Source: Comamonadaceae bacterium (GTDB taxonomy: Bacteria; Pseudomonadota; Gammaproteobacteria; Burkholderiales; Burkholderiaceae_C). From it: DNA of 64,000 nucleotides. Under the pieces are notes generated by a model. It was not told the DNA's origin, ran no database searches, and was given only the letters and a program-made list of their open reading frames with translations. The number at the start of each line of letters is the position of its first letter. The first letter of the stretch is position 1. Location of the stretch: contig CANBVJ010000012.1 of NCBI GenBank assembly GCA_947372865.1, positions 1 through 64,000 of the forward strand, in the 5' to 3' direction. Below are positions 29,392-57,449 of this stretch, in pieces. The position numbers and the translations under genes were made by a program.

Positions 29392-30819
29392 ATGTCAGAC
29401 AATGCACACAGCCCGACCACCGCGAGCTTTATCTCCTACCACGCCGGCCTGGGGTCCAGGGTCGCCGTGGAGTTGGATCGTGGCGGGGTCAGTTATGCCC
29501 AACTCGACAGCGATATCGCTTTAGCCTGCCGCTACCTGGGGCAGCAAACGCTGCGCTACAAGGACCTGCTGGTAATCGGCCTAAGTGATCCTTATGCCCA
29601 CTTGGTCTTTGTTTTGGCTGCCGAGCTGCTCGGGCTGATGTCGTGTTCGATACAAATGAGCGAAGAGGTACTGCCGCTCGATGTGATGGCCAGGGCTCAA
29701 TTGGTGCTTACGCAACACAGCGTGCCGCCTGATGCGGGCGTGCACCATCAGCTACCACCGGACTGGCGCGCTTTGGCCAAGGACTATGCGTCTGTGCGTC
29801 TCGTAGCATTGCAAGATGCCGACCCGGTGCGCCTGGTGCGCTCGTCCGGTACGACCGGTACGCCCAAAAAGATCGTTATCCGCCGCGCCCAGCAGGCCCG
29901 GTGGCTGGCTTACCTGGCGTTTTCGGCCGGTTACGGCCCGCAGACGCGGTTTTACGTGGCAGCGGCTTTTCCGGTGAACACTTTTTACATGCGGGCGGTG
30001 CTGTGCCTGCGCATGGGGGGCTGTTTGTTGATGGGTGGCTTGTCACTGCTCAGCCGTGCCACGCACACTTGGATGTTGCCCACGACGCTGGAGCAGGTGA
30101 TGGACGAACTGCCGGCCAGCTTTGTCAAACCTGAGCGATTGGAGATCAGCACTGCAGGCGCGGCGCTGGCGAACGCCACACGACTGCGGGTATGTGGCGC
30201 CTTGGCCAGCAGTATCGTCAACACTTACGGCAGCAACGAGGTGGGCCCCGTGTGCACCATGACCGATGACGGACGCGGCGTGGTTGTGCCTGGCACGGAT
30301 GTACAGGTGGTCGACGACCAAGACCAAGTGCTGCCGCCGGGGACGCCTGGACAACTGCGCGCGCGCAACGCCATCATGGCCGAGGGCTACCTCGACCACC
30401 CTGATGCGACTGCCGAGCGCTTCAAGCACGGCTGGTTTTACCCCGGGGATGAAGCGCTGTTGCTGGCGCCGGGAGAGTTGCGACTGCTTGGGCGCAGGGA
30501 TGACATGCTCAATTTCGCCGGTTTCAAGCGCAGGCCGGAAGAGGTCGAGGCATTGCTTAAAACCGTGCCCGGCGTGCGCGATGCCGCTGCGCTGACGCAG
30601 CACAACCGAGATGGCGTGGTCAGCCTGTACCTGGGTTTGGTCTTGCACCCCGGCGTGACCCCCGACGCGGTGCTTCCGTCCTTGCGCTCGGTGCTCAAAC
30701 TGCCTGTCAAGGAGCTGGTGGTACGCCAGTTCAACGCGCTGCCTCGCACCAGCACCGGAAAACTGCGCCGCAACGCCCTGCTGCCTTTTTTTGCTGAAAC
30801 CCCAAAAAGCGAGGGCTGA
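29392..30819 (+). CDS. AMP-binding (ANL superfamily) acyl/aryl-adenylate synthetase
   Basis: VRSSGTTGTPKKIVI, NTYGSNEVGPVC, FYPGDEALL, RTSTGKLRRN. Confidence 0.85.
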   Translation: MSDNAHSPTTASFISYHAGLGSRVAVELDRGGVSYAQLDSDIALACRYLGQQTLRYKDLLVIGLSDPYAHLVFVLAAELLGLMSCSIQMSEEVLPLDVMARAQLVLTQHSVPPDAGVHHQLPPDWRALAKDYASVRLVALQDADPVRLVRSSGTTGTPKKIVIRRAQQARWLAYLAFSAGYGPQTRFYVAAAFPVNTFYMRAVLCLRMGGCLLMGGLSLLSRATHTWMLPTTLEQVMDELPASFVKPERLEISTAGAALANATRLRVCGALASSIVNTYGSNEVGPVCTMTDDGRGVVVPGTDVQVVDDQDQVLPPGTPGQLRARNAIMAEGYLDHPDATAERFKHGWFYPGDEALLLAPGELRLLGRRDDMLNFAGFKRRPEEVEALLKTVPGVRDAAALTQHNRDGVVSLYLGLVLHPGVTPDAVLPSLRSVLKLPVKELVVRQFNALPRTSTGKLRRNALLPFFAETPKSEG

Positions 30820-30820
30820 G

Positions 30821-31324
30821 ATGTCTTTGAGCCAATTGAACGCCGGTTACGACGTCCGCGAAGACCGCATTGTTTTGCGCGTCAACACCAAGACTGGCGA
30901 AGAGTACCGCCTTTTTTTGACCCGCAGAATCACCCTGCAGTTGGTGGCGTTCTCCCAGCAACAGCTGGTAGACCTGTTGGCCCGCGACCATGGCCCGCAA
31001 GCGGCGCGGGCGATTGCCGATTTTCGGCAAGACGCCGCGCAGCAGCAAACCGATTTCAACGTGGCGTTTAAAGTAGCCCAGCACTATCCCTTGGGCCTGG
31101 ACCCCAAGCTCGTTGTGTCATTCCAAGGCCTATTGGCGCCTCGCTTGCAACTCAAACTCGGTCTCAAAGAGGGAACGGTGCTGACGCTGCCCTTGGACGA
31201 AGCAACGCTGCGCTCCCTGTGCTTGCTGCTTGAGCGTACCGTGGGCTTGACGCAGTGGCAGAGCGCGCCAGAAGTGCCTGCCCCGCCCACTCCTTCGAGC
31301 GCGCCACGCGCGCCCATGCACTAA
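30821..31324 (+). CDS. Conserved hypothetical protein of accessory locus
   Basis: 167-aa ORF starting 1 nt after the AMP-ligase stop; EDRIVLRVNTKTGEEYRLFLTRRITLQLVAF motif; no assignment. Confidence 0.7.
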   Translation: MSLSQLNAGYDVREDRIVLRVNTKTGEEYRLFLTRRITLQLVAFSQQQLVDLLARDHGPQAARAIADFRQDAAQQQTDFNVAFKVAQHYPLGLDPKLVVSFQGLLAPRLQLKLGLKEGTVLTLPLDEATLRSLCLLLERTVGLTQWQSAPEVPAPPTPSSAPRAPMH

Positions 31325-31347
31325 ACACGGCGTGCATACCGTTCGTC

Positions 31348-32118
31348 TTAGGGTGCAGCCTCTGGCGCCGACGTGCTGCTGGCCAACGCTTTGGGCAGCA
31401 GCAGTGGAACTACCGCCATCACGCTGTCGCGGTAAATTTCAAAAGGACGTTTGTCCGCGCGCGGGTTGATGGATACGGCCTCAGGCACTTCTGCCTGTCC
31501 GGCCAACAGTTCGGCCAGCAAGCTGGACTTGATGGCGTAGTTCACATTTTGCGGCACGTCCATTTTCTGGTCTTTGAGCGGCACCGCCGCCAGCTTGGAA
31601 AGCACGACCCCCACCACTGCGCCATCGGCCGCCAGCAAGGGTCCGCCGGAATTTCCCCGCTGTATTTCTGCGCTGAACTGAAAGTGCCTGGAACTACCGC
31701 GCAGCCCGGCGCTGCTATTGATAATGCCGGCGGTGAACTTGGGGCTGAGGCCCTGTATGTCGATTTGCGGGTAGCCAATCGCATACACCTCCAGGCCCAC
31801 CGGGATGTTGTCGGTGCGTCCCAAACGCAGAAAGGGTACGGGCGACTTCGCTACCCGCAGCAAAGCCAGGTCGTTCGCCGTATCGGTCTTGATTACCTGG
31901 GCTGCCACCAGGCGCCCACCGTACAGGACCATGGCTTTTTCATGCCCCTGCACCACGTGCGCGGCGGTCACCAGCAAACCGTCGCTGCTGACAAAAAAGC
32001 CGCTTCCAGACCCTTCAAACTTGGTTTGGCCCCACAGTAAAGCAGGGCACAAGCACATCAGCCCCAGCCCCAGCGCCAGTTGCCAGCGTTGGCCCCAGCG
32101 CGGCGCTTGCGCAGTCAT
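31348..32118 (-). CDS. Trypsin-like (S1C-type) serine protease without PDZ domain
   Basis: SGSGFFVSSDGLLVTAAHVVQG, NDLALLRV, QRGNSGGPLLAADGAVVGVV; start overlaps the upstream stop (ATGA). Confidence 0.85.
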   Translation of the reverse strand: MTAQAPRWGQRWQLALGLGLMCLCPALLWGQTKFEGSGSGFFVSSDGLLVTAAHVVQGHEKAMVLYGGRLVAAQVIKTDTANDLALLRVAKSPVPFLRLGRTDNIPVGLEVYAIGYPQIDIQGLSPKFTAGIINSSAGLRGSSRHFQFSAEIQRGNSGGPLLAADGAVVGVVLSKLAAVPLKDQKMDVPQNVNYAIKSSLLAELLAGQAEVPEAVSINPRADKRPFEIYRDSVMAVVPLLLPKALASSTSAPEAAP

Positions 32119-34070
32119 GCTCCAACGGCGCTGCCCTGGCCGAGTTGCTTCAAGTCGTCGGCGAGTTCGTCCAGCACGGTGTCCCAATCGTGCGGCCTAT
32201 GCTGACGGTACAGGCGCATGGAAGGGTACCAGGGCGTGTCCTTGCGCTCGAGCATCCAGCGCCAGTCGGGCGCATAGGGTGTCAGCATCCACACCGGGCA
32301 GCCCAAGGCGCCCGCCAGGTGCGCTACCGAGGTGTCGACCGACACCACCAGGTCGAGGTTGGAAATCAGACCCGCAGTGTCGGCAAAATTGTCCAGTTCT
32401 TGGCTGAAATCGCGCACTTGGGTCTGCGAACTCAGGTAGACCTGGTCCTCCGGGCGCACTTCTTTCATCAAGGACACGGCGGTAAACGGCGTGCTGCCCA
32501 GCGCCTCCATTAAATCCTTCAGGGCCAGCGAGCGGTTGCGGTCGTTGGCGTGCTTGGGGTTGCCCGACCACACCAGGCCTATGCGCAGGCCGGAGGCGTC
32601 TTTCAGGAGCTCGCCGAAATACGCCTTGCGCTCAGGCCTTGCGCTCAGGTAGGCCTGTGGGCCTGGAATGCTGGCCATGGTCGTGCCTAACAAGGTGGGA
32701 ATCGAGAGCAGAGGGCAATACAGGTCAAATTCCGGAAACTTGCGGGTGCCGCGCTCTATCCACACCACACCGGGTGCGTAGTCCTTGGCAATTTCCAGCA
32801 GTGGCTCGGGGAACTCCGCCAACACCTGGGCACCCTGGGCTTGCAGCATAGGCAAATAGCGCATGAACTGGATGTGGTCCCCCATGCCTTGCTCGGAATG
32901 GACAAACAGTCTCTTGCCTTGGATCGACTCGCCCTTTTTCCACTGCGGCTTGCCGAGTTTGCGTGGGCGCAACTCTTTGACCCCGCCACGCCAACGCCAC
33001 TCGTAGGCTTCAAACCCCTCTTCAATCCGCCCCAGCAGCAGCAAGGACAGCGACCGGTTCCACTGCGCGTCCGGGAAACTGTCTTTTTGCGAGATCGCCT
33101 TCTCCAAGCCGGCCAGAGATTCTTCCACGCGGTTGAGTCGCCGCAAGGTGATAGCGTAGTTGTTCCAGGCCTCGGGGTAGATGTCCTGTCGGTCCAAGGC
33201 CAGACGGTAATTCGCCAAGGCCTCGTCATAACGGTTGGCCTTGCTATAAAAGTTGCCCAGGTTGTTGTAAACAGCCGCCTGATCGGGAAACATTTCCTTG
33301 AGCTTGGTGAACTGCGCTTCTGCCGTGTCGTACTGGTCCGTCGCCAAATAGGCGTTGCCCAGGTTGGTCATCACGTCCAGCCGGTCCGGCGCGTCGCGCA
33401 GCACCTCGGCGTAGTGGCTAATGGCCTCTTTGTGGCGTCCGAGCTTCATCAGCACATGGCCTAGTGACATGCGGGCGGCCCATATCGTGGGGTCCAGGTC
33501 CAAAGCGCGGTACAAAACGGGCAAGGCGCGTTTGTCTAGCTTGAGCTGTGCAAAGAGCGTACCAAGCGTGTGCAAGTAGGGAGCAAAGTCAGGCCGCAAC
33601 GCCAGCGCACGCCCTATGCTTTTGACGGCCGCGTCGAGTTGCTTCGCCGCACCCAGTGCCTGACCTTTGTAATAGTGCAAGTCTGGGTCTTTGTCCAAGG
33701 CAGGCTCGGCCTTGGCAAACTCTTCTACTGCTGCCTCGGGTTTTGATTGGCGCAACAGTGCCAGGCCCAGCAGCTTGTGGGCCGGCGCCTGGTCTGGCTG
33801 CTGAGTGATGCATTTACGCAACAGCTCCTCGGCCAGTGAGTTCTCGCCGGACTGCAGCTTTACCAAGCCGTACTGCAGCAGCAGCTTGGGGTGGTCGGGG
33901 TGGCTTTTGAGCAGTCGCTGAAACAGCGCATTGGCCGAATCAAAGTCCTTGGCTTGGGCAAACTTGGCGCCGCGGACCAAAGCCTCCTCCAGCGTCTCCC
34001 CCACGTGTGTGGTGGTGGGCGCTTTCACAGCGGGCTTCGGTTTGTTGGGTTTTACTTGAATTTTGGTCAT
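32115..34070 (-). CDS. TPR-repeat protein fused to a GT9-like glycosyltransferase domain
   Basis: Multiple TPR units followed by HSEQGMGDHIQFMRYLPMLQ...RIGLVWSGNPKHANDRNRSL...VDTSVAHLAGALGCPVWMLTP. Confidence 0.85.
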   Translation of the reverse strand: MTKIQVKPNKPKPAVKAPTTTHVGETLEEALVRGAKFAQAKDFDSANALFQRLLKSHPDHPKLLLQYGLVKLQSGENSLAEELLRKCITQQPDQAPAHKLLGLALLRQSKPEAAVEEFAKAEPALDKDPDLHYYKGQALGAAKQLDAAVKSIGRALALRPDFAPYLHTLGTLFAQLKLDKRALPVLYRALDLDPTIWAARMSLGHVLMKLGRHKEAISHYAEVLRDAPDRLDVMTNLGNAYLATDQYDTAEAQFTKLKEMFPDQAAVYNNLGNFYSKANRYDEALANYRLALDRQDIYPEAWNNYAITLRRLNRVEESLAGLEKAISQKDSFPDAQWNRSLSLLLLGRIEEGFEAYEWRWRGGVKELRPRKLGKPQWKKGESIQGKRLFVHSEQGMGDHIQFMRYLPMLQAQGAQVLAEFPEPLLEIAKDYAPGVVWIERGTRKFPEFDLYCPLLSIPTLLGTTMASIPGPQAYLSARPERKAYFGELLKDASGLRIGLVWSGNPKHANDRNRSLALKDLMEALGSTPFTAVSLMKEVRPEDQVYLSSQTQVRDFSQELDNFADTAGLISNLDLVVSVDTSVAHLAGALGCPVWMLTPYAPDWRWMLERKDTPWYPSMRLYRQHRPHDWDTVLDELADDLKQLGQGSAVGA

Positions 34071-34134
34071 GGGTAATCGGTATTCACCAAAATTGTAAAT
34101 GCGACATGACTAACATGATTTCATCGTTTCAACT

Positions 34135-34163
34135 TTGAATTGTGGTAAAAACGCAGGTAGAGC
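34135..34163 (+). promoter_or_regulatory. Weak candidate sigma70-like promoter upstream of giant repeat gene
   Basis: TTGAAT-17 nt-TAGAGC inside the AT-rich 116-bp divergent intergenic region; poor -10 match. Confidence 0.2.
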
Positions 34164-34186
34164 TAATTTAACCCAGGAATCACCAC

Positions 34187-37100
34187 ATGAGCAACCTCGC
34201 CCCAGGATCGAACGAATCCATGCAAGACCAAGACGCAGCCCTGACCAAGAAGCAAAAGAAGAATCTCTCAGGGGCTAAAGGCTCGGCAGCTGCCCAGACG
34301 GGCGTGGTTGCGCCGGAGTCGGCGCTTGCAGTCAAAAAGCTACGCCGTAAATTGGTGGCTGACGATAGTGTTCTCGGGGCTGCAGGCGATGACCTGGGCA
34401 GCAGTGGTGCCGTGGTTAGTGATGTAGACGCGAGTGCACTCAACGATGGTGGAACCTGGCAGTTGGCGCAAGCGGAAACTGGTGCGGTGCTGCCCGGTGT
34501 TGGCGGAGCGGCTGGTGGCGCTGGTGGTGCCGCAGCAGCAGGTTCTGGTGGTGCAGCTGCTGCGGCCGCAGGCTCTGGTGGTGCGGCGGCAGCGGGTGCT
34601 GGTGCCGCCGGCGCAGGCGCTGCAATGGGCGCAGGTGCTGCTGCAGCGGGCGCAGGCCTTGGCCTCGGTGGTGTTGCCGCGGCAGCGGCGGGTGGATTGG
34701 CGCTGGCAGGCGGTGGCGGCGGTTCGTCGGCACCGGCCCCCACGCCTCCTGGTGCGCCCTCCATCAGCACCGTAGCTGCTAACGACGTCGTCAACGGCGC
34801 AGAAAACACTGCGGGCGTGACTATTAGCGGCCAAGCTGCAGCAAACTCCACCGTGCGCGTATACGATGGTGTGACGCTAATTGGTACAACCACTGCTGAC
34901 GGCAGTGGCAACTACAGCCTAACTGGCGTGCACTTTGCAACCTCGACAGGCGCCAGCCATAGCCTGACTGCTACTGCCACAAACAGCGTAGGCACTGGCG
35001 CAGCCAGTACTGCGCACACCGTGCAGGTTGACACAGAGTTGCAGGTGCCCACGGCTGCCATTGCGCACACCGTGCTTAATGACACAGGTAGCTCTTCAAG
35101 CGACAGTATCACCGCCAACACCGCGCCGGTCATCAATGGCACTGCAGAAGCTGGCGCGCGCGTGACCGTTGTGGTTGGTGGGGTAAACGGGCAAACCCTG
35201 ACGACTACAGCAGACGGATCGGGTAACTTCAGTGTTACGCCTGTGTCATTGGCCAATGGCACGTATACCGTGGCGATCACTACGAGTGATGCGGCTGGAA
35301 ACACCAACACTGCCTTTGGAACGCCTTTCACCATCGGTTCAGCGCTGAGTGCGCCCACCATCAGTACCGTGGCTGGTAACGACATCGTTAATGGCGCAGA
35401 AAACACCGCAGGCGTGACCATCAGCGGCGTGGCTGATGCAAACTCCACCGTGAAGGTGTACGACGGTGCAACGCTCATCGGCACAACCACTGCGGACAGC
35501 CATGGCAGTTACAGCATCACAGGTGTTCAATTTGCAACATCGGCAGGCGCCAGCCATAGCCTGACTGCGACTTCCACCAACAACGTAGGTACCAGCGCCG
35601 CCAGTGCCGCGCACACCGTGCAGGTTGACACCGTGGCGCCAGGCGCGCCCGCTGCGGCCATTGCGCACACCGCGCTCAACGACACGGGCAGCTCTTCGAG
35701 CGACAGCATCACCTCCAACGCCACGCCAGTCATCACCGGTACTGCCGATGCTGGTACGCAAGTCACAGTGGTGGTGGGTGGGCAAACCCTCACGACTACT
35801 GCAGACGGCTCGGGCAACTTCAGTGTGACCCCCGCAGCATTAGCCAACGGCACCTACACCGTGGCGATCACGACGACCGACGCGGCTGGCAACAGCAGCT
35901 CTGGCACTGGAACCCCTTTCACCATTGGTACAGCGCTGAATGTCCCCACAATCAGCACCGTAGCCGGCAACGACGTCGTTAGCGCCGCAGAAAACACCGC
36001 AGGCGTGACCATCAGCGGCGTGGCGGCTGCAAACTCTACCGTGCGTGTATACGACGGTGCAACGCTCATCGGCACAACCACTGCAGACGGCAGCGGTAAC
36101 TACAGCATCACAGGCGTGCAATTTGCACTCTCGGCAGGCGCCAGCCATAGCCTGACTGCGACTTCCACCAACAACGTAGGCACCAGCGCCGCCAGTGCCG
36201 CGCACACCGTGCAGGTTGACACCGTGGCGCCAGGCGCGCCCGCTGCGGCCATCGCGCACACCGCGCCCAATGACACCGGTAATTCGTCAAGCGACAGCAT
36301 CACAGCCAACACCACGCCAGTCATCACTGGCACTGCCGATGCTGGAACGCAAGTTACTGTTGTGGTTGGTGGTCAAACCCTGACGACCACGACGGACGGC
36401 ACGGGCCACTTCAGCGTGACACCTGCGACACTGGCCATTGGTACATACACCGTGGCGATCACGACGACAGACGCGGCCGGCAACAGCAGCTCTGGCACTG
36501 GAACCCCTTTCACCATCGGTGCGGCGCTGAGCGCTCCCACCATTGGCACCGTAGCTGGTAACGACATCGTTAATGGCGCGGAAAACACCGCAGGCGTGAC
36601 CATCAGCGGCATGGCGGCTGCAAACTCTACCGTGCGTGTATACGACGGTGCAACGCTCATCGGCACAACCACTGCAGACGGCAGCGGTAACTACAGCATC
36701 ACGGACGTGCACTTTGCACTCTCGGCAGGCGCCAGCCATAGCCTGACAGCTACTGCCACCAACAACGTAGGCACCAGCGCTGCCAGCGCAGCGCACGCGG
36801 TGCAAGTTGACACCTTAGCACCAGTTGTGCCCGCTGCGGCCATCGCGCATACCGCGCTTAATGACACGGGTGACTCGTCAAGCGACGACCTCACTTCCAA
36901 CACGGCTCCCGTCATCACCGGAACAGCCGAAATCGGTGCGCAAGTCACCGTTGTGGTTGGTGGACAAACCCTCACGACCACTGCAAACGGCTCGGGTCAC
37001 TTCAGCGTGACGCCTGCACCGTTGGCCAGCGGCACCTATACCGTGGCGATCACTACGACTGATGCGGCAGGCAACAGCAGCTCTGCCGCTGGGGCACCGT

Positions 37101-40100
37101 TCGAAGTTGATCACATCGCGCCGGGCACACCTAGCGCTGCCATTGCGCACACCGTGCTCAACGACACGGGTACATCTGCAACTGACAGCGTCACCCTCAA
37201 CACCACGCCTGACATCACCGGCACCGCCGAAATCGGCGCGCACGTGAATGTTGTGGTGGGCGGGCAAACCCTCACCGCCATCGCTAATGGCTCGGGCATT
37301 TTCACTGTGACGCCATCAGAAATGGCGCCTGGCACCTACACTCCTGTGGTTACCGTGACCGACGCTGCTGGCAACTCCAGCGTCCCGTTCAACGGCACGC
37401 CTTTCACCGTGGAAGCGCTCCCTGCGCCTAGCACCGCGACTCCGCTGGCCACCAACAGCACCCTGGAGCACCCCACGGCAATTATCCATGGCCACGCGGA
37501 TGTTGACTCCTGCGCTGATGGCGGCGTGACCGTGATTTTTGAAGGTACGACCTATTCTCAAAGCGGCCTTGAGCTGATTGTTGACGACAACGGCAATTGG
37601 TACCTGGATGTGGGCGCGCAAGTGCTTGCCGAAGGCATTCAAGATGGCCACTATGACGTGACTGTCCGCGCAACCAACTTGGCTGGTGGAGAGACCACCA
37701 CCACGCTGACCGACGTGCTGTGGTTGGTCAATGGATGCCAGACCTTTAACGCAAACTCCTTGCCCGAAGACAACCATTGGAATATCACTGGTGAGTCCGG
37801 CATGGAAACCCTGGGCGTGGACTTTGGCGTTTACGTGACATCTTTGGGTGGCATCGAGGTGACCGACTTTGTGGTGTCGGATTTCAATCTCGACGCGCAA
37901 AACGTGACGCTGGCCGAATGTGGCATCGACGTGTCCCATGGCAACGCAACGTTCCACTCCAACAACATCACTCTTGACGGCAGCAGCATCTCCGTGTCGG
38001 ATACGGCAGTGCGCCACAGTGAATACAACCAAGTGCTGGACGCTGGCATTACCCTGGCAGCCAATGGTTCCATCGTGATGCTGGGCTATGGCGACACGGG
38101 TGGCGGCATTGCGCCGCAGACCCAGGCGTCCGGCAACGGCGGTCTGGTGACCTTGTCTGAAACAAACACTGGCTTTAATGGTCAGTACGGTGGCGCCGAT
38201 GTGTACGCTGCCGATGCCGGTATTTATTTGACGGCAAGCGACAGTATTTCGATCACAGTTGACGGCCACACCACAGCCGGTGTCACCCTATCGCAAAGCG
38301 ACCTGGGCCAAGGTGAAGACGCGAATGTGTACGTTAACAATGCGCACATTGACCTACTGGCTGGTGGCGGCATCTCCTTGCTGGAGACCTATACCGACGT
38401 GTATGAAAGCGGTACTTACACTCTGGTGGACAACGGAATCTCCCGCACTGCTACCGAATCGAGCACCATCTCTGGTGGTTCGGGACTGGACATCGAGCTC
38501 TTGCAAAACCACCTGAGCGCCTATGACCTGGTGGATGCATCTAACGCTAGCATTTCTTTGGGCGCAGACTGGATTGCCGCAGGCTCGGTCCTGCTTGAAC
38601 AGCAATCATTCCAGGGCTCGGGCGTGGACCTGTCAAATGCCCATGTCGACGTGTTTGGCAATGGTGTGAGCTTGATGGACAGCTTCGTGACGTCGTTCTC
38701 AGAGGCCGACTTGGGCAACTCTTACGAGTCGCACCACAGTTCTTACTGGGATTCGGGTAGCGTGCACATTTTGCAAAGTGCAGTCACCGCCTTCGACGGA
38801 TCAATTGATGCGCACGACGCTCAGATCTCTGTGGGCGCCAACTTTGTTGCGGTGGGTGAGGTTGGCGTTGAGCAATCAGATATGCACGCCTCCCAGGGGA
38901 TTGATTTGTCTGGCGCCCATGCCGTGGTTAATTCCGCGGGTCGGTTTGATATGGGTGCTGTAAGTTTTGAAGACGACTACGCTTACTCCCAAACTTTGGA
39001 CGGTTACCAGGGTGACTTCTACTCCAGCGCGACCGACGTGGTGTTTAGTGCATCAGACGTGTATGTCAATCAGTACGACATCCATGCTGACCACGGCGAC
39101 ATTAATGCCGCGGGTGCCACTGCTTCAAATGGTGCGGACTATGAAGGGTCATTTTTCGTTCCACAACAAGGCAGCGTGGAGGTTTACCAAGAAAGCATCA
39201 CCGCCCTTGACGGCAGTGTGACCATTGCCAACGCTGAAGCCAGTAAATACGCCCATGAAGAGTCGTATTGGTTTGGTGGGTCGAACGACTTTGGTGTGTT
39301 TAACTATTTCAGTGCTGGCTATACATCCGTGCAAGACCACACGGTGTACGACGCTTTCAGTTACCAAGACTATGACCGCACTGCCAGTAACATGTCGGCA
39401 GATGGATCCAATGTTGCTGTGGACCAGCATTACATTCGTGCTGCTAATGGCATTGTTGCCGATGGCGCGTCCGCTGGACTGGGTATTGATCACAACTACG
39501 ATTTCCCCGTGGTGTTTGGCGGTGACGTCTCGGTCAGCCAGACGTATTTCACGGCGCAGGGTCTTGACGGTGGTGGCATCAACCTGAACAACGCCCAAGT
39601 CTGGCTCTCAAGCCAAGACGACTTTGTGCTGTTGCACCATACCGCGACCGCCGATGTGAGCGTGTACGAGTACTACGTGGAAACCGTGGGTGGTTTGAAC
39701 TCAGGCCATCTGAACACCTCTTTGCACGAGTACACCCTGTCCTCCGACACGATCGACTTTGCCAGCGTGCATGTGGACCAGATCCTCATCCACGCCGCTG
39801 CAGGCGACATCAGCGCTGTAAATGCGGCGGTGGACATCAGTGTTGGTGGCTTGTATTCGGGTGACCTGTATATCTCGCAAGACTACATGACGGCGCAAAA
39901 CGGCAGCATCGATGTGCACGGCGCACATGTGGCTGTGTCTGCGGCAGGCGCCATCACCCTAGTCAACTCGGTCGTCTCGTTCTGGGAAAGCGCGCACGAT
40001 TCGTCTTCGACTTTTGGCGGATCGAGCACTTCGTTTAGCACACTCGATTACAGCGACTACAACACGAATGTAGGCTCGATTTACTTGGAGCAAATTGCGT

Positions 40101-46114: not shown

Positions 46115-46122
46115 GGACACTG

Positions 46123-48413: not shown

Positions 48414-50605
48414 TCGATGCCATCGCCCAAGACACACTCCCATTAACTCCACAGCCCGCACCGAATCACGGTGACGAGTTGCTGGCAGCGCTGCTCTCAC
48501 GCCTTGCCGCGCTGCAGGGGCATGCGGTAGGTCGGGTCACCATGCTGATGACCCAAACCGGTCTGCAGGGTGCCGACATTGCCGACATGGGCCGCGCCGA
48601 GCAGGCCTTGGAGATTTGGTCGGCGGTGTTTCCGTCCGGCCAGGCTCGCCGAATAGACCAGTTGCCCGAGCCGCATGACATGCCGCTGCTATGGCTTGAT
48701 GTCACAGGCGAACAGGCCCTGATTCTGACCGGGCAGCTCAGCATGGGCAGCTACCAAGCGCTTACGTCCGACGGTGCCAAAGCAACCGTCACGATGGAGC
48801 AAATGCTGTCAGGCCATGTGCTGAACCTGCGTTGCGATGTGCAGAACCTGCAAGAAGACAGCGACCGCCCGGTGACCGCGCGGGATTGGTTCAAATACGC
48901 CCTTTTCAAGCGCAAGAAGACCTTTTTCGAGGCATCCATTGCCACCGCCTTCATCAACGTCTTGGCCTTGGTGAGTTCGCTGTACTCGATGAATATTTAC
49001 GACCGGGTAGTGCCTTCCAAGACCTCGTCGACCCTGTGGGTGCTGAGCGTGGGCGTGGTGCTGGCCTATGTTTTTGACCATGTGCTCAAGCATGTGCGCG
49101 CCAAATACGTGGAGCAGGCCTGCCGCGAGATCGACAACGAGCTTTCAGGTGTGTTCTTCGACAAAATGCTTAGCATCCGCATGGATGCTCGACCGGCCGC
49201 GGTGGGCACCTTTGCCTCGCAGTTACGCCAGTTTGAGACGGTGCGTAATGTGCTTACGGCCACCACCATGTTTGTGCTGGTGGATGCGCCGTTTTCTTTG
49301 GTGTTTATTGGCGTCATCGCCCTGATTGCCGGCCCCATTGCGCTCATCCCATTGATGCTGCTGCCGCTGACCATGGGTATTGCGTTCTTGTCGAAGGGCC
49401 GCTTTGAACGTTTGGCGCGCGAAAAGGTGGGTGAGACCAATCAGCGCAACGGCCTGTTGGTTGAGGTGATCTCGGGTATCGAATCGGTCAAGGCCGCGCA
49501 GGGCGGTTGGAAGTTTGCCCGCCGCTGGAGCCAGCTCAACGAGTCGCTGGCGACCAACGACCTCACGACCCGACTGCACTCGCAGTCACTGATGAACTCG
49601 GTGCAGATGATTCAGCAGTTGCTGTATGTCGCGATCATGGTGGCGGGTGTCTATGCCATTCATGACGGGCAAATGACCACAGGTTCATTGATCGCCTGCA
49701 CCATTATTGGTTCGCGCGCCTTGGCTCCGGCGGCCGGATTGGCCGGCATTGTTGCGCAGTGGCAGGGTGCCAAAGCCGCGCTGGCAGTGCTGGAAAGAAT
49801 CATGGTGCTGCCTTCTGACACGCGGGCGGACCAGAGGCCCATCATTCCGGAGTCTTGCACCGGAAACCTGACGCTCGAAGGCATTCGCTACCAATATGGT
49901 GAAGGCATTCCCGCAAGTTTGCAGCTCGACGGCGTGCAGTACAAGCCCGGCGAGCGCGTGGTGGTGATGGGCGCTTCGGGTTCGGGCAAGTCGACCATGC
50001 TCAAAGTCGCCTCGGGCCTGTATGCGCCCACCCAGGGCAAGGTGCAGCTCGATGGCCTAGACATGGCACAGCTCGCGCCAGGTTATCTGCGTGAGCACAT
50101 TGGCTACCTGCCGCAGGATGTGTGGCTGTTTGAAGGCACACTGCGCGACAACATCATCATGGGTTTGCACTCGCCGAGCGATGCCCAAATTCTGCGGGCT
50201 GCAGAATTGACCGGCCTGATTGCGGTCATTCGCGCACATCCGCAAGGTCTGGCTTTGCCTATCTCCGAGGGCGGACGTGGACTGTCGGTGGGGCAAAGGC
50301 AGTTGGTGGGGCTGACTCGCCTGCTGATTGCGCAGCCTAAAGTCATGTTGCTGGATGAACCCACGGCAGCGCTGGACAACCGGCTTGAACAGTACGTGAT
50401 CCAGCAGCTGGTGACCCACATTGCGCCCGACTCGGTACTGGTATTGGTGACGCACAAGGCGGAGTTGATGCGCTTTGCCACCCGTGTGCAAATTATTGAC
50501 GGTGGCAAGGTGGTGCTTGATGGGCCACGTGACCTGGTCGTTGAAAAGCTGAAAAACCGCTTGAACGCGAACGCCGGCGCCCCCCCTGCAGTGACGCAGG
50601 CTTAA
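48410..50605 (+). CDS. Type I secretion system ABC permease/ATPase (LssB/LapB-like)
   Basis: N-terminal C39-like domain without obvious catalytic Cys; TM domain SLYSMNIYDRVVPSKTSSTLWVLSVGV; GASGSGKSTMLK, LSVGQRQLVGLTRLLI, MLLDEPTAALD. Confidence 0.9.
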   Translation: MIDAIAQDTLPLTPQPAPNHGDELLAALLSRLAALQGHAVGRVTMLMTQTGLQGADIADMGRAEQALEIWSAVFPSGQARRIDQLPEPHDMPLLWLDVTGEQALILTGQLSMGSYQALTSDGAKATVTMEQMLSGHVLNLRCDVQNLQEDSDRPVTARDWFKYALFKRKKTFFEASIATAFINVLALVSSLYSMNIYDRVVPSKTSSTLWVLSVGVVLAYVFDHVLKHVRAKYVEQACREIDNELSGVFFDKMLSIRMDARPAAVGTFASQLRQFETVRNVLTATTMFVLVDAPFSLVFIGVIALIAGPIALIPLMLLPLTMGIAFLSKGRFERLAREKVGETNQRNGLLVEVISGIESVKAAQGGWKFARRWSQLNESLATNDLTTRLHSQSLMNSVQMIQQLLYVAIMVAGVYAIHDGQMTTGSLIACTIIGSRALAPAAGLAGIVAQWQGAKAALAVLERIMVLPSDTRADQRPIIPESCTGNLTLEGIRYQYGEGIPASLQLDGVQYKPGERVVVMGASGSGKSTMLKVASGLYAPTQGKVQLDGLDMAQLAPGYLREHIGYLPQDVWLFEGTLRDNIIMGLHSPSDAQILRAAELTGLIAVIRAHPQGLALPISEGGRGLSVGQRQLVGLTRLLIAQPKVMLLDEPTAALDNRLEQYVIQQLVTHIAPDSVLVLVTHKAELMRFATRVQIIDGGKVVLDGPRDLVVEKLKNRLNANAGAPPAVTQA

Positions 50606-50630
50606 AGCACGCCCACCGAGGAGTATTTCC

Positions 50631-51797
50631 GTGAACCCCAACCGTCCATCCAAAGCAGCGCCCGGCGGGCGCTGGGCCCTATGGGCCATTATGGCCAGCC
50701 TAGTCGTATTTTTCACCTGGGCATATTACAGCGAGCTTGAGCAGGTTACCCGGGCACCTGGCCAGGTGATCGCGAGTTCGCGTACCCAAATCATCCAGTC
50801 TTTGGACGGTGGCGTGATCGAGAGCGTTGCCGTGAAAGAAGGCGCCACCGTGCGTGCCAACCAGGTGCTGCTGAAGTTCAGTGCCGCGCGGGCTGATTCA
50901 GCCTGGCGCGAAACCCGCGCCCGTGCGGCGGCGCTGGCCGCCGCAGTAGCGCGCCTGCGTACGGAGGTGTTTGACGAACCCATGGTGTTTAACGATTTGG
51001 TCAAGGCCCATCCCGGCTTTGCGGAAAACCAAAAAGAACTGTACAAAAAACGCAAGCGTGCGATTGACGACGAGTTGGCGGCTTACAAAAAGGCCTTGGC
51101 GCTGGCGCAGGAAGAATTGCAAGCAACAGAACCTTTGCTCAAAAATGGCGATGTCGGCCTGGCCGATGTGCTGCGACTGCGCCGCCAGGTGATGGACCTT
51201 GAAGGCCAAATCGCCAACCGCAAGAACAAGTATTTCCAAGACGCGCAGACCGAGTTGGCTAAGGCGCAGGAAGAGTTGGCGTCAGTATCGCAAGCCATGG
51301 AGCAACGCAAAATACAGCTCGACAACACCGTGGTTCTGGCACCGCGTGCCGGTATTGTCAAAAATATCCGCTTTACTACCTTGGGCGCAGTGGTGAAGTC
51401 GGGCGACGATATCTTAGAGCTGGTGCCCGCAGACAGTGATTTGGTGGTGGAAGCCAAGGTAAAGCCCGCCGACATTGGCTTTATTCACATGGGTTTGCCT
51501 GCCACGCTCAAGGTCGATGCCTATGACTACTCGGTTTTTGGAGCGCTGCAAGGTAAAGTGATTTACATCAGCGCGGACACCATGAAGGAAGACACGCGCG
51601 GTTTGCAGGATCAGACTTATTACTTGGTGCGGGTCAAAGCCGATGCCGCCCATCTGCTGGGACGCAATGGCGAAGAGATGGCCGTCACGCCCGGCATGAC
51701 CGCTACGGTAGAAGTCTTGACCGGCAAAAAAACCATCCTGAACTACCTGCTCAAGCCGATCGTAAAAACCTTGCACGAGTCGATGAGCGAGCGCTAG
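50631..51797 (+). CDS. HlyD-family type I secretion periplasmic adaptor
   Basis: GTG start; single TM, long coiled coil, VLAPRAGIVKNIRFTTLGAVVKSGDDILELVP. Confidence 0.9.
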   Translation: MNPNRPSKAAPGGRWALWAIMASLVVFFTWAYYSELEQVTRAPGQVIASSRTQIIQSLDGGVIESVAVKEGATVRANQVLLKFSAARADSAWRETRARAAALAAAVARLRTEVFDEPMVFNDLVKAHPGFAENQKELYKKRKRAIDDELAAYKKALALAQEELQATEPLLKNGDVGLADVLRLRRQVMDLEGQIANRKNKYFQDAQTELAKAQEELASVSQAMEQRKIQLDNTVVLAPRAGIVKNIRFTTLGAVVKSGDDILELVPADSDLVVEAKVKPADIGFIHMGLPATLKVDAYDYSVFGALQGKVIYISADTMKEDTRGLQDQTYYLVRVKADAAHLLGRNGEEMAVTPGMTATVEVLTGKKTILNYLLKPIVKTLHESMSER

Positions 51798-51801
51798 GGC
51801 G

Positions 51802-52986
51802 GTGATTCACTTCATTCAACATGGCTTGCGCGACTGCCACAGCCATTTTTATGGGGAAACTCTTGGATTCTTACAGGCGGCGCGCGAACTGAACGTTGGC
51901 TTGCAAGTGTGGACGCATGCCAAATGTGAGCCGGAAATTCTTGCGGCCTGCAATGCCAAAGCGGTATTCCCGCTACAGACCGATGGAGTGCTGGATCTCG
52001 ACCCAGTGAGTGCCGAGTTGTCCAGCTATATCGTGGGTGCTACAGCCTTCGCTGGTATCCTGAGCAAATACCTGACGACCGATATTTCGGCCGTTGATTG
52101 GGTTTTCGTGGCTTATGCCTCGCAAAACGAAGCCTATGCGCTTGCGTTATGGCTACAGACCTTGCCAAGCGGGAAAAGGCCGCAGGTTGCTCTTTTTTGC
52201 CACCGCCCCGAGCTGAAATGGAATATTGGCCCACAGCGTGAAAAGATGTCGGCAAATGCTTCATTTTGGCGTTTTGCCGCCTTGATTTTTGAAAAAATCG
52301 GCATCAAAGACCGTGTACATGTGTTCGCGCCCGATGCTCGGCTGGCAAACGTCTTGGCAATGGCGTCTGGGCTTCAGGTGCAAACCACCGGAATCGCCAC
52401 CCCGTACTTTTTGACGCCCGAACAGGTGTTGGAAGTCCCCAAAAAATTCGATATTGGCTTGATCGGCGAGTTTCGTTCCGAGCGCGGCAGTGATCTGGTT
52501 CCGGATTTGATGGTCGAATTGGACCAGCAACGACCTGGCATGCGTTATGTGTTGCAGCTTAGAACCGCAAACGAGACGGGAAAAGTTCGGCGGCGATTGG
52601 CCGATAAGGGTTTTGCGGGCGAGTTACTCCTTGTCCCGAGCACGATGCTGGAGCCGGCCGAATTTGCCCGGCTTATTCCACAAATGCGTCTGATGGTCTT
52701 GCCGTATTTTCCTGATCGCTACCGTATGCGCAGCTCGGGAGTATTGTCCGAGTGCATTGCTTACGCAACGCCCTGCGTAGTTCCGGTCGATACCTGGCTC
52801 GGTGACCAAGTGCAAAGCGGCGCTGCCGCAGGTGTGGTGTTTGCCGAATGGACAAGCCAGGCGATTTGCGCTGCCACCCTGAACGCTTTGGACCAGTTGA
52901 ACGCCTTGTCCGACTCCGCCAAAGAAAAAATGCAGCCCTGGCGGCAACAAAACTGCGCGCGGGCGATGCTTGAGCGTCTCGTTTAA
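51802..52986 (+). CDS. GT-B fold glycosyltransferase-like protein
   Basis: GEFRSERGSDLVPDLMVEL..., VLPYFPDRYRMRSSGVLSECIAYATPCVVP; GTG start, follows the HlyD gene by 4 nt. Confidence 0.65.
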   Translation: MIHFIQHGLRDCHSHFYGETLGFLQAARELNVGLQVWTHAKCEPEILAACNAKAVFPLQTDGVLDLDPVSAELSSYIVGATAFAGILSKYLTTDISAVDWVFVAYASQNEAYALALWLQTLPSGKRPQVALFCHRPELKWNIGPQREKMSANASFWRFAALIFEKIGIKDRVHVFAPDARLANVLAMASGLQVQTTGIATPYFLTPEQVLEVPKKFDIGLIGEFRSERGSDLVPDLMVELDQQRPGMRYVLQLRTANETGKVRRRLADKGFAGELLLVPSTMLEPAEFARLIPQMRLMVLPYFPDRYRMRSSGVLSECIAYATPCVVPVDTWLGDQVQSGAAAGVVFAEWTSQAICAATLNALDQLNALSDSAKEKMQPWRQQNCARAMLERLV

Positions 52987-53041
52987 ATCATCCCCCGACA
53001 CGCTCACGCGACGCCGGGGGGTGACTGCTCAGGAGCGCCGT

Positions 53042-53338
53042 TTATTTGGCTACGCAGAGAAATCCGCCGGCGGCAAATGACTCGCCTTGTTCATTCATAG
53101 CACGGCTGTGGTAGCCGCCAGACTTGGCCGTACTTTTGTCTCCGCCACAGGCAGCGACACCGGCAGCCAATTTGTCGGCGGGCACGGGCCCAAACGCAGT
53201 GGGACGGTCCCAGGCCACTACGCCCGACGCGTCTTTGACCAGGCGTGGAGGAGTTTTGTCTTCGCTGGCGCCCGGGCCGGTGGAGGCGCAAGCGGCCAAA
53301 AATGCCAGAGAAGCCAAAGCCAGAAATTGCAAACGCAT
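53042..53338 (-). CDS. Small lipoprotein, unknown function
   Basis: 98 aa; signal peptide with lipobox LAAC (FLALASLAFLAAC). Confidence 0.7.
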   Translation of the reverse strand: MRLQFLALASLAFLAACASTGPGASEDKTPPRLVKDASGVVAWDRPTAFGPVPADKLAAGVAACGGDKSTAKSGGYHSRAMNEQGESFAAGGFLCVAK

Positions 53339-53456
53339 GGGATGTGTCCTTTAAATGGTTGTTACTAAAATCACAGATTGAAACTGCAAAAAATTTGACA
53401 TGCATATTATAAAGTGCTGCAGTGTAAAATTGTTGTCGTCGAATTTAGTATTGATT

Positions 53457-54428
53457 ATGAGAATAAATGTTATAAATATAATAAAGTGGGCCGCACTGTT
53501 GACGCTGCCCCTCGCCTTTACGAACCCTGTGTCAGCATGTCAAAACTATCCCTGCAAGCCCATTAAGTTGGTGGTGCCGTCCGAGCCTGGTGGCGGCATT
53601 GACAGCATGGCGCGTATGCTGGCCCAGGTATTTAGCGTGCGGCTGAAGACGGATGTGGTGGTGATGAATAAGCCGGGTGCGTTTGGCGCTGTAGGTGCGG
53701 TCTGGACGTCCAAAGCGCCGGAGGATGGCTACACCCTGCTAGTCAACGGTCTGAGCCATGTCTCCACGCCCGTGCTGTCTGAGCGCGCGCCCTACGATGC
53801 GGTGCAGGATTTTGTGCCGATTGCCAAAATTGCCGAGGCGCCTCATGTCTTGCTGGTCAACAGCGAGTTGCCTGTCAGCAGCTTGGCTGATTTAACCCGG
53901 CTGGCGCGTCAGCGGATCCAGGGCGTCACATATGCTGCAGCCGGTGGTGCTACGAGTTTCGCGGCAGAGTCGTTTAAGCAACGCGCCGGCGGAAACTGGT
54001 TACACGTCCCCTACAAGGGTAGTGCACAGGCGCTGCGCTCCACGATGACCGGCGAGACCGATTTGATTTTTGTCGCCAGCCAATTGGCCCAGACCGCACT
54101 AGAAAGTGGGCGGGTGAAGGCCTTGGCGATCAGCCACCCCAAACGGTTGGATTATCTGCCGGCGGTCCCTACCTTGCGGGAATTGGGTTATGACGATGTC
54201 GACACTTCCCAGTGGTATGGCGTATTTGCGCCAGCCGGAACGCCGGTGGCGGTCATCGACGTATTAGATAAGGCGATCCGTGAAGAGTTAATGCCCGGAG
54301 GTTTGTTGCAAAAATATATTCAAAGTAACAGGATGGAGCCAGCGTATTTAGCCAAGCAGAATTTTAAGATTTTCTTGCAAGAGCAGACCAAGCGTATTAA
54401 ACAACTCAATATTGAAATTGAAAATTAA
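53457..54428 (+). CDS. Bug/TctC-family tripartite tricarboxylate transporter substrate-binding protein
   Basis: PCKPIKLVVPSEPGGGIDSMARMLAQ, LHVPYKGSAQALRSTMTGETDLIF, PAVPTLRELGY; start chosen at MRINVINIIKW. Confidence 0.88.
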   Translation: MRINVINIIKWAALLTLPLAFTNPVSACQNYPCKPIKLVVPSEPGGGIDSMARMLAQVFSVRLKTDVVVMNKPGAFGAVGAVWTSKAPEDGYTLLVNGLSHVSTPVLSERAPYDAVQDFVPIAKIAEAPHVLLVNSELPVSSLADLTRLARQRIQGVTYAAAGGATSFAAESFKQRAGGNWLHVPYKGSAQALRSTMTGETDLIFVASQLAQTALESGRVKALAISHPKRLDYLPAVPTLRELGYDDVDTSQWYGVFAPAGTPVAVIDVLDKAIREELMPGGLLQKYIQSNRMEPAYLAKQNFKIFLQEQTKRIKQLNIEIEN

Positions 54429-54441
54429 TGGAGTTATTTGA

Positions 54442-55920
54442 ATGGATTTTGTAGAATGTAGTGCGAACACCAGCGAGTACGTAGCCGTTCATGCGGCCAT
54501 GGAGCCTGCGCGGCCGGCGGTCGTGGTCGGTGGTCAGGTGGTCAGCTACGGCCTGGTGTTTGAGCAGATTAAAAACTTCACGCTCGCCATGCACGCACTC
54601 GGCATCAAGGCCGGCGACCGGTGTATCGTCAATGTCGCGCATCCTTATGTGCATTGGTTGATTTTGCTGGCGCTGGAAAACTTGGCGGCGGTGTCATGTT
54701 CGGCGCGCCCGGACGAAGAGGCTTCGCTAAGGGCATTGATGGCCAGTATGGATAAGCTCATTTGCCAGGAAACCAGAGTGCCTGATGGGCCGGTGGAGCT
54801 GGTTCATGTGCCATTGGAGTGGATTCAGACCCAGCTCAATGCGCGCACCGACGACGTGCGTTACCGCGAAGTGCTGCGCTTTCTGGGGCCCCAGGCTGGC
54901 CAGCGTATCAAGCGATCCTCGGGTACGACCGGTGGGATGAAGACCATGCTTTCGTCGAACCAGGGCGAAGAGGCATTCATCAAGGCGTATGCCGACGTTA
55001 TGGGTTTCACCCGGGATACGCGGTATTTGGTGGCCAACGGTTTTGTAATCACCTCGGTACACCTGTGCGCCACACTGTGCCTGCGCTTGGGCGCAATGGT
55101 GATTTTTGACCAGGGAGAAAATCGCCTGCAACTGATTGTCCGCCACCGGGTGACGCATGTGCGCTTTTTTCCGCAGCAGTTGCTCGATCTACTCAAGGTA
55201 ATGGAGGCGGGCTCTCTGCCCAAGCCGAAAGACTTGACGGTGATTTTGGGTGCCGCACCTGTTTCGCGCATTCTTTGGGACCGTGTTTTGGCTTTGATCG
55301 CCAGCAACATTGTGTACACCTACAACACCAACGAGTGTGGCTCTATTTGCGTCATGGGGCCCGATGGGGTAGGGGTGGTGCGTGCCGGTGTCCAGGTGAG
55401 CATTGTGGGCCCCGATGACCAGGTGCTTGCGCCGGGTCAAACCGGTCGCATCCGTGTCAAAGTGCCGCACGCGGTGCGGGCCTACCTCGACAGCCCCTTG
55501 GCCACCCAGAATAACTTCAAGGAGGGGTGGTTTTATACCGGTGACGCCGGCCATTTCATCGGCTCCAGGCATCTTAAGCTGGTCGGCCGCATCGATGATG
55601 TGCTTGTTTTTGCCGGCTTTAAGCGTGGTGCCGACGAGTACGAGGCAGAAGTCTGCACGGTTGACGGGGTTCAGGAGGCCTGTGCACTGTCAGCACCAGA
55701 TGCGCTAGGAATAGACCGCTTGGTGGTTTGTGCCGTGGCGGCACCTGCAGCAAAGAGACCGGTATTGGTACAGGCGTTGAGGAAACTCTTTCCCCCCTAT
55801 ATTTCCGAAGGTGCACGGGTGTTTTTTGTCGACAGTTTGCCGCGCACGGACAACGGCAAGCTCCAGCGCGCCGCGATGAAATCCCGCTTGCCGCAGCTCA
55901 CCGGGGGCCACGCTCTCTAA
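54442..55920 (+). CDS. AMP-binding (ANL superfamily) adenylate-forming enzyme
   Basis: KRSSGTTGGMKTML, TYNTNECGSIC, WFYTGDAGHF, RTDNGKLQRA. Confidence 0.85.
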   Translation: MDFVECSANTSEYVAVHAAMEPARPAVVVGGQVVSYGLVFEQIKNFTLAMHALGIKAGDRCIVNVAHPYVHWLILLALENLAAVSCSARPDEEASLRALMASMDKLICQETRVPDGPVELVHVPLEWIQTQLNARTDDVRYREVLRFLGPQAGQRIKRSSGTTGGMKTMLSSNQGEEAFIKAYADVMGFTRDTRYLVANGFVITSVHLCATLCLRLGAMVIFDQGENRLQLIVRHRVTHVRFFPQQLLDLLKVMEAGSLPKPKDLTVILGAAPVSRILWDRVLALIASNIVYTYNTNECGSICVMGPDGVGVVRAGVQVSIVGPDDQVLAPGQTGRIRVKVPHAVRAYLDSPLATQNNFKEGWFYTGDAGHFIGSRHLKLVGRIDDVLVFAGFKRGADEYEAEVCTVDGVQEACALSAPDALGIDRLVVCAVAAPAAKRPVLVQALRKLFPPYISEGARVFFVDSLPRTDNGKLQRAAMKSRLPQLTGGHAL

Positions 55921-57388
55921 GCGTACGCAGGTCCTGCAACCGCGCGCGCAATGCCGCGCGCTGGACTTTGCCTGTGGGCGTGCGGGGAATGGCGTCTACC
56001 TGCGCCCATTCCACCAGATGCCCAAAAGCTGCCATGCTGGTCGCCGTTTCTTTTTGCAGGCGCTCCAGACGACCGGTGGTAGTAAAGACGACCACAATTA
56101 CCACGACCTGCGCACCCTCCGGGCCTGACCCCATCAGCACTGCGGCATCCTGAACATAGTCCAGGCTACGCAGCTTGGACTCGGCTGCGGCAGGGTTGAC
56201 TTTGATGCCTCCGATATTGATCAGGTCGTCTTTGCGACCCGTGAGCTCCAGCCACCCATTGGGCAGCAATCGGCCCAGGTCGCCCGGCCAGAACCAGCTA
56301 TTGATGAAGTGGGTGGAGGTGGTTTCGGGCTCGCCTTCGTAGCGTGCAGCCATGTGGGGGGTACGCACCTTAATATGACCGACTTCCCCCGGGGCCAGCG
56401 CATGGTCCAGATCATTCACGATACGTACGTCGACCCCGGGCAGTAGCGAAATACCTGGGGTGTCGTTTTCGCAAGGTCCCGCGGACTGTGCACCGATGAA
56501 CCCTACCTCGTTGGTGCCGTACATGTCGACCACAGTATGGGCAAATACGTCCAGGCATTGCGCCACCGTGTCCGCTGGCAATACGCCACCAAAAGCGGTG
56601 AGCATGATTTTTTGTTGAACCGCAGGAGTTTCGTGCTGGGTTCGCGTGATGTTGGCCAAGTCCATGGGTAGCACGGTCGCGTGGCTGACACCAAAATCAT
56701 GCAGCGCCTGCAAAAACGAACGTTCGTCGCGCTTGACCACTGTGCCGCCAGCGCGCAGACAGGCAGTGGCTGCGGCGTATATGCCGCCGACAGAGAAGGG
56801 GTGCTGGATCAGGCAGACGCTGTCGGGTCCGTAGTGGCAAAACCATTGCCAGCGCTCGGTCCAGCCATCCCACATGCGCCTATCCAAGACAATGCGTTTG
56901 GATTCGCCGGTGGTGCCCGAGGTGCGTAGCAGGCGCAGTGCTGTTTTTTGGTAGCGGTCTTGTTCTGGTGGCTGAATGCTCGCGTCACTGTCCTGCGCAC
57001 CCAGGGCCTGCGCATTGACGGCCAGTACTGGTACTGGCAACACCTGGGCCACCTGCGAGAGCAGCGCACCCACCCCAAACTGATGTAGAAAGGCGGTGTT
57101 CACTTCGCTGGGCAGGACCGTCATACTGCAGTGGCCCAGATTTTCCAGCGCCAGCAAGCTGACCCATTGCCACAAAAAGTCCTCTGTAGACACTGCCACG
57201 ATCTGGTCTTTTGCAAGTACTGGCAGGTTGTTGCGCAGGAATGCCGTGCAGAGGGTCAGTCGCGCGTGCAATTGAGTAAAAGTGCAAGAGTTAGCGCCCC
57301 ATTGCAAAGCGGTTTTATCCGGCGTTTTTCGGGCATAGAACAGCAACAAATCGGCCGTCGTTGGAAGGGGGCTGCTAACATCGTTCAT
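55898..57388 (-). CDS. AMP-binding (ANL superfamily) adenylate-forming enzyme
   Basis: LRTSGTTGESKRIVLDRR, DMYGTNEVGFIG, WFWPGDLGRL, RTPTGKVQRA. Confidence 0.85.
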   Translation of the reverse strand: MNDVSSPLPTTADLLLFYARKTPDKTALQWGANSCTFTQLHARLTLCTAFLRNNLPVLAKDQIVAVSTEDFLWQWVSLLALENLGHCSMTVLPSEVNTAFLHQFGVGALLSQVAQVLPVPVLAVNAQALGAQDSDASIQPPEQDRYQKTALRLLRTSGTTGESKRIVLDRRMWDGWTERWQWFCHYGPDSVCLIQHPFSVGGIYAAATACLRAGGTVVKRDERSFLQALHDFGVSHATVLPMDLANITRTQHETPAVQQKIMLTAFGGVLPADTVAQCLDVFAHTVVDMYGTNEVGFIGAQSAGPCENDTPGISLLPGVDVRIVNDLDHALAPGEVGHIKVRTPHMAARYEGEPETTSTHFINSWFWPGDLGRLLPNGWLELTGRKDDLINIGGIKVNPAAAESKLRSLDYVQDAAVLMGSGPEGAQVVVIVVVFTTTGRLERLQKETATSMAAFGHLVEWAQVDAIPRTPTGKVQRAALRARLQDLRTLRERGPR

Positions 57389-57449
57389 AGATTTAGGGAT
57401 TTTGGAGTTTTTATTGAAAGCTGGACTTTATCCGTACAGCACGGCGATG

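Follow-up and report, generated by a model that had tools for sequence, protein, structure and literature searches.

Introduction

In the biosynthesis of E-64 (PMC12568646) and of cystargolide (PMC11427300), carrier-free ANL enzymes cooperate with ATP-grasp enzymes, joined in the case of cystargolide by a methyltransferase, and the products are soluble inhibitors. The amide bond synthetases (ABS), such as McbA and the S. hindustanus ABS, are also carrier-free ANL enzymes. On the side of secreted proteins, FlmG is a cytoplasmic O-glycosyltransferase of flagellins, which binds its target through its own protein-binding domain, the target being exported afterwards (PMC7591256). The SiiE-type giant adhesins of type I secretion systems (T1SS) are huge proteins of Ig-like repeats that have their own T1SS (PMC6272769). 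Here, we analyze a stretch of 64,000 nucleotides from a Comamonadaceae bacterium (contig CANBVJ010000012.1), referred to as the window, in which three ANL ligases, ligase 1 (29392-30819), ligase 2 (54442-55920), and ligase 3 (55898-57388), flank a giant repetitive secreted protein of 3975 residues.

The locus combines features of these systems. As in the cystargolide and E-64 pathways, ANL enzymes stand beside ATP-grasp enzymes, with a methyltransferase as in cystargolide. However, the genes of the window occur together with an adhesin, a T1SS, and glycosyltransferases, and its ATP-grasp enzyme is cyanophycin-synthetase-like. The adhesin resembles SiiE in its huge size, its Ig-like repeats, and the possession of a T1SS of its own, but differs in its solenoid-like second half and in the dense set of tailoring enzymes around it. 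We propose, at a probability of about 0.45, that the three ligases and the neighboring tailoring genes may form an accessory, carrier-free acid activation system, which would supply acyl or amide groups to modify the adhesin itself or the glycan on it.

The Three Ligases and Their Clade

All three ligase open reading frames (ORFs) are present and intact in the window, and each of them matches PF00501 above the cut-off. Ligases 1 and 2 lie on the plus strand. Ligase 3 had been recognized as an ORF in the initial annotation, which left its minus strand unmentioned; it is convergent with ligase 2, and the 3' ends of the two genes overlap by 23 nt. The A5 motifs are YGSNEVG, YNTNECG, and YGTNEVG, the A3 motifs are RSSGTTGTPKK, RSSGTTGGMKT, and RTSGTTGESKR, and the A10 motifs are PRTSTGK, PRTDNGK, and PRTPTGK in ligases 1, 2, and 3, respectively, where the A5 and A3 strings agree with those given previously. 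The contrast with the housekeeping ligases of the window was also read correctly, as their A5 motifs are YGLSET (25253) and WGMTET (8722), with no Asn before the Glu. The A3 P-loop, the A5 Glu, the A7 GD, the A8 Arg/Asp, and the A10 Lys are found in all three ligases; with A7, A8, and the A10 Lys in place, these enzymes are expected to be capable of adenylation.

Of the 25 PF00501 matches in the genome, only ligases 1-3 have an Asn before the A5 Glu. The other proteins with an alignable A5 have Thr or Ser at this position, apart from two divergent ones that read T-A-D. The pairwise identity among the three ligases is 25-34%, with 34% and 28% for the other two relative to ligase 2. When ligase 2 was used as the query against the genome, ligases 1 and 3 scored 216 and 142 bits and the next ligase 49 bits, and the three are mutual best matches within the genome. 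In another locus, L037, the orthologues of ligase 1 (L037:11759-13183) and ligase 2 (L037:4096-5565) are each 59% identical to their counterparts. The values of pN for these orthologues, 0.28-0.29, against pS of 0.77-0.79 indicate purifying selection on ligases 1 and 2, with dS saturated.

The low identity among the ligases would also be compatible with unrelated or decaying enzymes that arrived in an island of surface genes and share no role there. This is further suggested by ligase 3, which is absent between ligase 2 and the glycosyltransferase gene that follows in L037 and is thus an insertion in the window relative to that locus, by a degenerate ANL protein in the genome G1062, described below, and by single clade members located between housekeeping genes in the genome G108. 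However, the catalytic motifs are kept in all three ligases, and the orthologues of ligases 1 and 2, besides being under purifying selection, were retained in the same locus of the genome G1061 despite a rearrangement. We consider this explanation very improbable.

Relatives of the ligases were gathered from samples at the levels of genus, family, order, and phylum, and by one scan of genome contigs. In a careful tree of 72 rows, ligases 1-3 fall inside one clade of 15 rows with a support of 100/94. The same clade was recovered in a tree of 111 rows from which the A5 columns had been removed, although its support there was weak (79-86). The phylogeny does not scatter the three ligases among other families; it bears out the earlier proposal of a distinct subfamily and supports the view that they belong to a small, genuine, and previously undescribed ANL subfamily.

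The initial annotation had regarded the shared Asn as the hallmark of this subfamily. This holds for 14 of the 15 clade members, the exception being a Val-Glu member in G108 (YGAVE). Outside the clade, however, Asn-Glu recurs in at least four lineages, namely ANL/ATP-grasp fusions, ligases of Rhodobacteraceae, an actinomycete ligase, and L080, and the starred tree branches require at least four changes. Because the pattern used in the contig scan included Asn-Glu, its frequency among the outsiders is inflated, while its recurrent origin is unaffected. The Asn before the A5 Glu is the usual mark of the subfamily, neither unique nor invariant, and its use as a unique signature was rejected.

The fusions mentioned above are proteins of about 1100 residues (L118:5167-8484, L119:8970-12209, L120:7640-10939, L121:6397-9672, and L122:6714-10031). 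All five have Asn-Glu at A5 and a cyanophycin-synthetase-like ATP-grasp part, and three of them adjoin type IV pilus-like genes. In L122 (G489), a 20-kb stretch carries the fusion, three further cyanophycin-synthetase-like ATP-grasp proteins, and several sulfotransferase-like genes. The fusions were rejected as close kin of ligases 1-3, because their ANL part lies across well-supported branches of the 72-row tree, and they serve as an analogy only. Near the clade in the tree are the ANL proteins of L090, L091, and L092 (G1031, G971, and G733, with genomes of 2-2.5 Mb), whose A5 reads YATSE or YVTSE; that of G1031 adjoins a polyketide-synthase-like ORF of 2180 residues.

Close members of the clade are rare. 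They occur in 4 of the 299 genomes of the family, with the genome of the window counted, and in two genomes found by the contig scan. G108 has seven copies if the fragments with which contigs C10 and C122 end are counted as a single gene.

The Conserved Adhesin and Type I Secretion Locus

The clade ligases are linked to an adhesin locus. In the window, the ligases flank the 3975-residue protein (34187-46114, plus strand), which consists of bacterial Ig-like repeats followed by solenoid-like repeats, together with its own T1SS proteins. These are an outer-membrane efflux protein of the TolC type (47139-48413), an ABC transporter (48410-50605), and a membrane fusion protein of the HlyD type (50631-51797), all on the plus strand. 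Three further genomes, G1061, G1062, and G108, also have clade ligases next to this adhesin/T1SS locus; their ABC transporters are 81%, 61%, and 72% identical to that of the window, respectively. The comparison covers only five adhesin loci, four of which contain ligases, mostly from metagenome-assembled or draft genomes; outside the window, genes were called by a heuristic based on the longest ORF and third-position GC content (GC3), so that some unmatched ORFs are surely spurious.

In G1061, a metagenome-assembled genome of Comamonadaceae, one 46-kb contig holds the T1SS, the giant adhesin, the glycosyltransferase with tetratricopeptide repeats (TPR), the protease, the small protein, and the 59% identical orthologues of ligases 1 and 2, as well as methyltransferase, ATP-grasp, family 2 glycosyltransferase (GT2), and TctC genes. 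The whole ligase and tailoring block lies on the TPR-glycosyltransferase side of the adhesin in G1061 and mostly on the T1SS side in the window. The block of TctC, ligase 2, GT2, methyltransferase, and ATP-grasp genes is thus found on opposite sides of the adhesin with its linkage kept, and its persistence despite the rearrangement is an argument for a common role.

The G1062 locus consists, in this order, of TPR-glycosyltransferase, an adhesin ORF of 5242 residues, glycosyltransferase, T1SS, two clade ligases, TctC, and another ANL. In the same genome, L038:7960-9549 is a full-length ANL-like ORF without A3 (FGRDAMPR), A5, and the A10 Lys. It adjoins intact clade ligases, occupies the position held in the window locus by the protein at 51802, and is likely a pseudoenzyme. 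In G108, a clade ligase directly follows homologues of the T1SS and of the protein at 51802. The latter (51802-52986, plus strand) is locus-specific, has no Pfam match, and is perhaps a glycosyltransferase; among the 299 family genomes it is found only in the genome of the window and in G108.

Several further genes belong to the locus. Downstream of the adhesin gene lies a group 1 glycosyltransferase (46123-47142, plus strand). The TPR protein (32115-34070, minus strand), divergent from the adhesin gene, has clear TPR and a C-terminal region resembling family 9 glycosyltransferases, with a Glyco_transf_9 match of 21.7 bits against a cut-off of 22. Its layout, beside a large extracellular protein, resembles that of FlmG, in which an N-terminal domain for binding the protein substrate precedes a C-terminal glycosyltransferase; the target here would be a T1SS adhesin rather than a flagellin. 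NeuB was not found in the genome of the window or in G108. The donor would therefore not be pseudaminic acid by an FlmG-type route, and a nonulosonic acid was rejected as the common glycan donor.

The TPR protein is followed by a trypsin-like serine protease (31348-32187, minus strand), which is conserved in the locus. Downstream of ligase 1 lies a conserved small protein (30791-31324, plus strand, likely start 30836), which has no Pfam or NCBIfam match and for which an AlphaFold2 (AF2) model made from two sequences has a pLDDT of 42. In four genomes, it is found next to that end of the adhesin locus which carries the protease and the TPR-glycosyltransferase. A small lipoprotein (53042-53338, minus strand) has a homologue in the adhesin locus of the genome G305 that consists of three tandem copies in one protein. 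Upstream of ligase 1 is a subtilase (26983-29280, minus strand) with a probable autotransporter-like C-terminus, and its homologue L055:3-821 lies on a G108 contig that carries another clade ligase.

The tailoring genes lie around ligases 2 and 3. The gene of a TctC/Bug solute-binding protein (53400-54428, plus strand) precedes that of ligase 2 by 13 nt, and L037 has the same pair. This arrangement suggests another explanation, in which the ligases are ordinary catabolic acyl-CoA ligases: TctC would deliver an environmental carboxylate for activation with coenzyme A (CoA), and the proximity of the adhesin would be incidental. The TctC gene is kept with clade ligases in G1061 and G1062, ligase/TctC pairs occur outside the clade as well (L124, L040/L044), and acyl-CoA ligases are among the best fold matches of ligase 2. 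However, no beta-oxidation or ring-cleavage genes were recognized within the cluster, no TctA or TctB adjoins this TctC, the A4 His usual in the acyl-CoA ligases of the genome is absent from ligases 1-3, and the linkage to glycan and secretion genes recurs. We consider the catabolic explanation unlikely, although it is one of the two main rivals.

Beyond the ligases follow the GT2 gene (57402-59039, plus strand; 50% identical in L037) and a methyltransferase (59078-59923, plus strand), which overlaps the gene of a cyanophycin-synthetase-like ATP-grasp ligase of 657 residues (59878-61851, plus strand); this pair is conserved in L037 and G305. The ATP-grasp protein scores 283 bits against the cyanophycin synthetase equivalog, whose cut-off is 850, and has no match to the Mur-ligase domain that would form the C-terminal part; it is a truncated relative rather than a cyanophycin synthetase proper. 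Its closest relatives are 40-48% identical, and longer family proteins of the size of cyanophycin synthetase are 31-36% identical. A TupA-like ATP-grasp protein (61949-62830, plus strand) comes last; none was seen in the L037 locus.

G305, a genome of another genus of the same family, was found via the closest relatives of the ATP-grasp protein. Its T1SS locus has an adhesin-like ORF of 3348 residues, a TPR-sulfotransferase, and the homologue of the small lipoprotein, and around the T1SS lie the methyltransferase/ATP-grasp pair, two more such ATP-grasp proteins, and a second methyltransferase. No ANL was found within about 79 kb around this adhesin locus. The methyltransferase/ATP-grasp chemistry therefore belongs with such adhesin loci also where ligases are missing, and the ligases look like an accessory part. 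The TPR-sulfotransferase (L214:13747-15852), located beside the giant adhesin-like ORF, mirrors the TPR-glycosyltransferase of the window.

Predicted Chemistry

The AF2 model of ligase 2 (pLDDT 87) shows a complete two-domain ANL fold. Against solved structures, hundreds of chains had Z over 8, and the top rows were all ANL proteins. The best matches, tied at Z of about 38-40, were 4-chlorobenzoyl-CoA ligase, stand-alone and nonribosomal peptide synthetase (NRPS) adenylation (A) domains, CahJ, and an amide bond synthetase, so that CoA ligases, A domains, and amide bond synthetases are not separated by the fold; the structures 8pyy and 8pyx of amide bond synthetases are among the matches, which are no better than those to CoA ligases. 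Ligases 1-3 resemble the salicylate-AMP ligase CahJ, the 4-chlorobenzoate-CoA ligase, and THR1 in fold, ATP-binding motifs, the A10 Lys, and a length of about 490 residues. In contrast, the identity is about 19-23%, Asn takes the place of Thr/Ser before the A5 Glu, and both the A4 His and the NRPS Asp are missing. The residue aligned to the A4 Asp of NRPS (PheA 235) is Thr, Asn, or Gly in ligases 1-3, and this Asp, which binds the alpha-amino group in NRPS, is found in none of the 14 aligned clade members.

The initial annotation had seen no carrier-protein gene nearby, and the whole genome (about 96% complete) agrees: it contains no dedicated carrier protein, and the sole PF00550 match, a single acyl carrier protein, sits on another contig. 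Carrier-dependent activation of the NRPS or DltA type was rejected on the grounds of this single carrier protein and the absent A4 Asp.

Carrier-free chemistry would also suit a small-molecule pathway, whose pseudopeptide or amide product, like cystargolide or E-64, would not be attached to the adhesin. The ANL, methyltransferase, and ATP-grasp enzymes correspond to the cystargolide enzyme set (PMC11427300), and natural ANL/ATP-grasp fusions exist, though with an ANL part from another clade. However, no dedicated exporter or resistance gene was seen, and glycosyltransferases are interleaved among the genes. In addition, the ATP-grasp proteins of G305 flank an adhesin locus without any ligase, and the methyltransferase/ATP-grasp pair of L037 sits with an APS kinase and a sulfotransferase-like gene carried by that locus. 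A separate small-molecule product, the other main rival, is improbable.

Proposed Role and Significance

According to the adhesin-modification reading, ligases 1-3, as members of a single small ANL subfamily, would be catalytically active in adenylate formation. Each of them would probably activate a different carboxylic acid, which would not be an alpha-amino acid bound in the manner of NRPS, and, in a genome that has no dedicated carrier protein, would pass the acyl group to CoA or straight to an amine. The ligases, the methyltransferase/ATP-grasp pair, the other ATP-grasp protein, and the glycosyltransferases would jointly constitute an accessory and variable set of tailoring enzymes in the cytoplasm, which may make or attach substituents on the giant adhesin or its glycan before export by the neighboring type I system. 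It is the gene neighborhoods that point to this probable role in adhesin decoration.

Several observations weigh against this reading. The initial annotation had described the subfamily as dedicated to this locus, which agrees with the linkage in three other genomes but not with clade copies elsewhere: G258 and G194 each have a single copy with no adhesin or T1SS-type partners beside it, and most copies in G108 are away from the adhesin locus and lack its partners, some standing between housekeeping genes. The absence of ANL in G305 shows that its adhesin system manages without ligases, and the occurrence of TctC beside acyl-CoA-type ligases outside the clade counts here as well. The co-occurrence statistics are thin; given the genome of the window, one other carrier of the protein at 51802 exists among 298 family genomes, and it falls among the three further genomes with clade ligases, with a chance of about 0.01.

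A broader extension is tentative and doubtful: the giant T1SS adhesins of this family may be modified in the cytoplasm by exchangeable enzymes and may carry amide-linked or acyl substituents. The exchangeable set would comprise a TPR-guided glycosyl- or sulfotransferase, a methyltransferase, and two kinds of ligases, ATP-grasp enzymes forming amides and carrier-free ANL enzymes. Within the literature library searched, there was no paper joining ATP-grasp, adhesin, and type I secretion, and none joining cyanophycin synthetase, ATP-grasp, AMP-binding, and fusion.

The analysis marks out an uncharacterized ANL subfamily with an altered active-site motif. More useful is the recurrent neighborhood, which places a giant secreted adhesin among amide- and acyl-forming enzymes. 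If the broader extension holds, carrier-free amide chemistry of the natural-product type would be applied to a surface protein or its glycan. Should the link be functional, these adhesins would bear undescribed chemical decorations, and the enzymes that make them would be of kinds hitherto known from small-molecule pathways.

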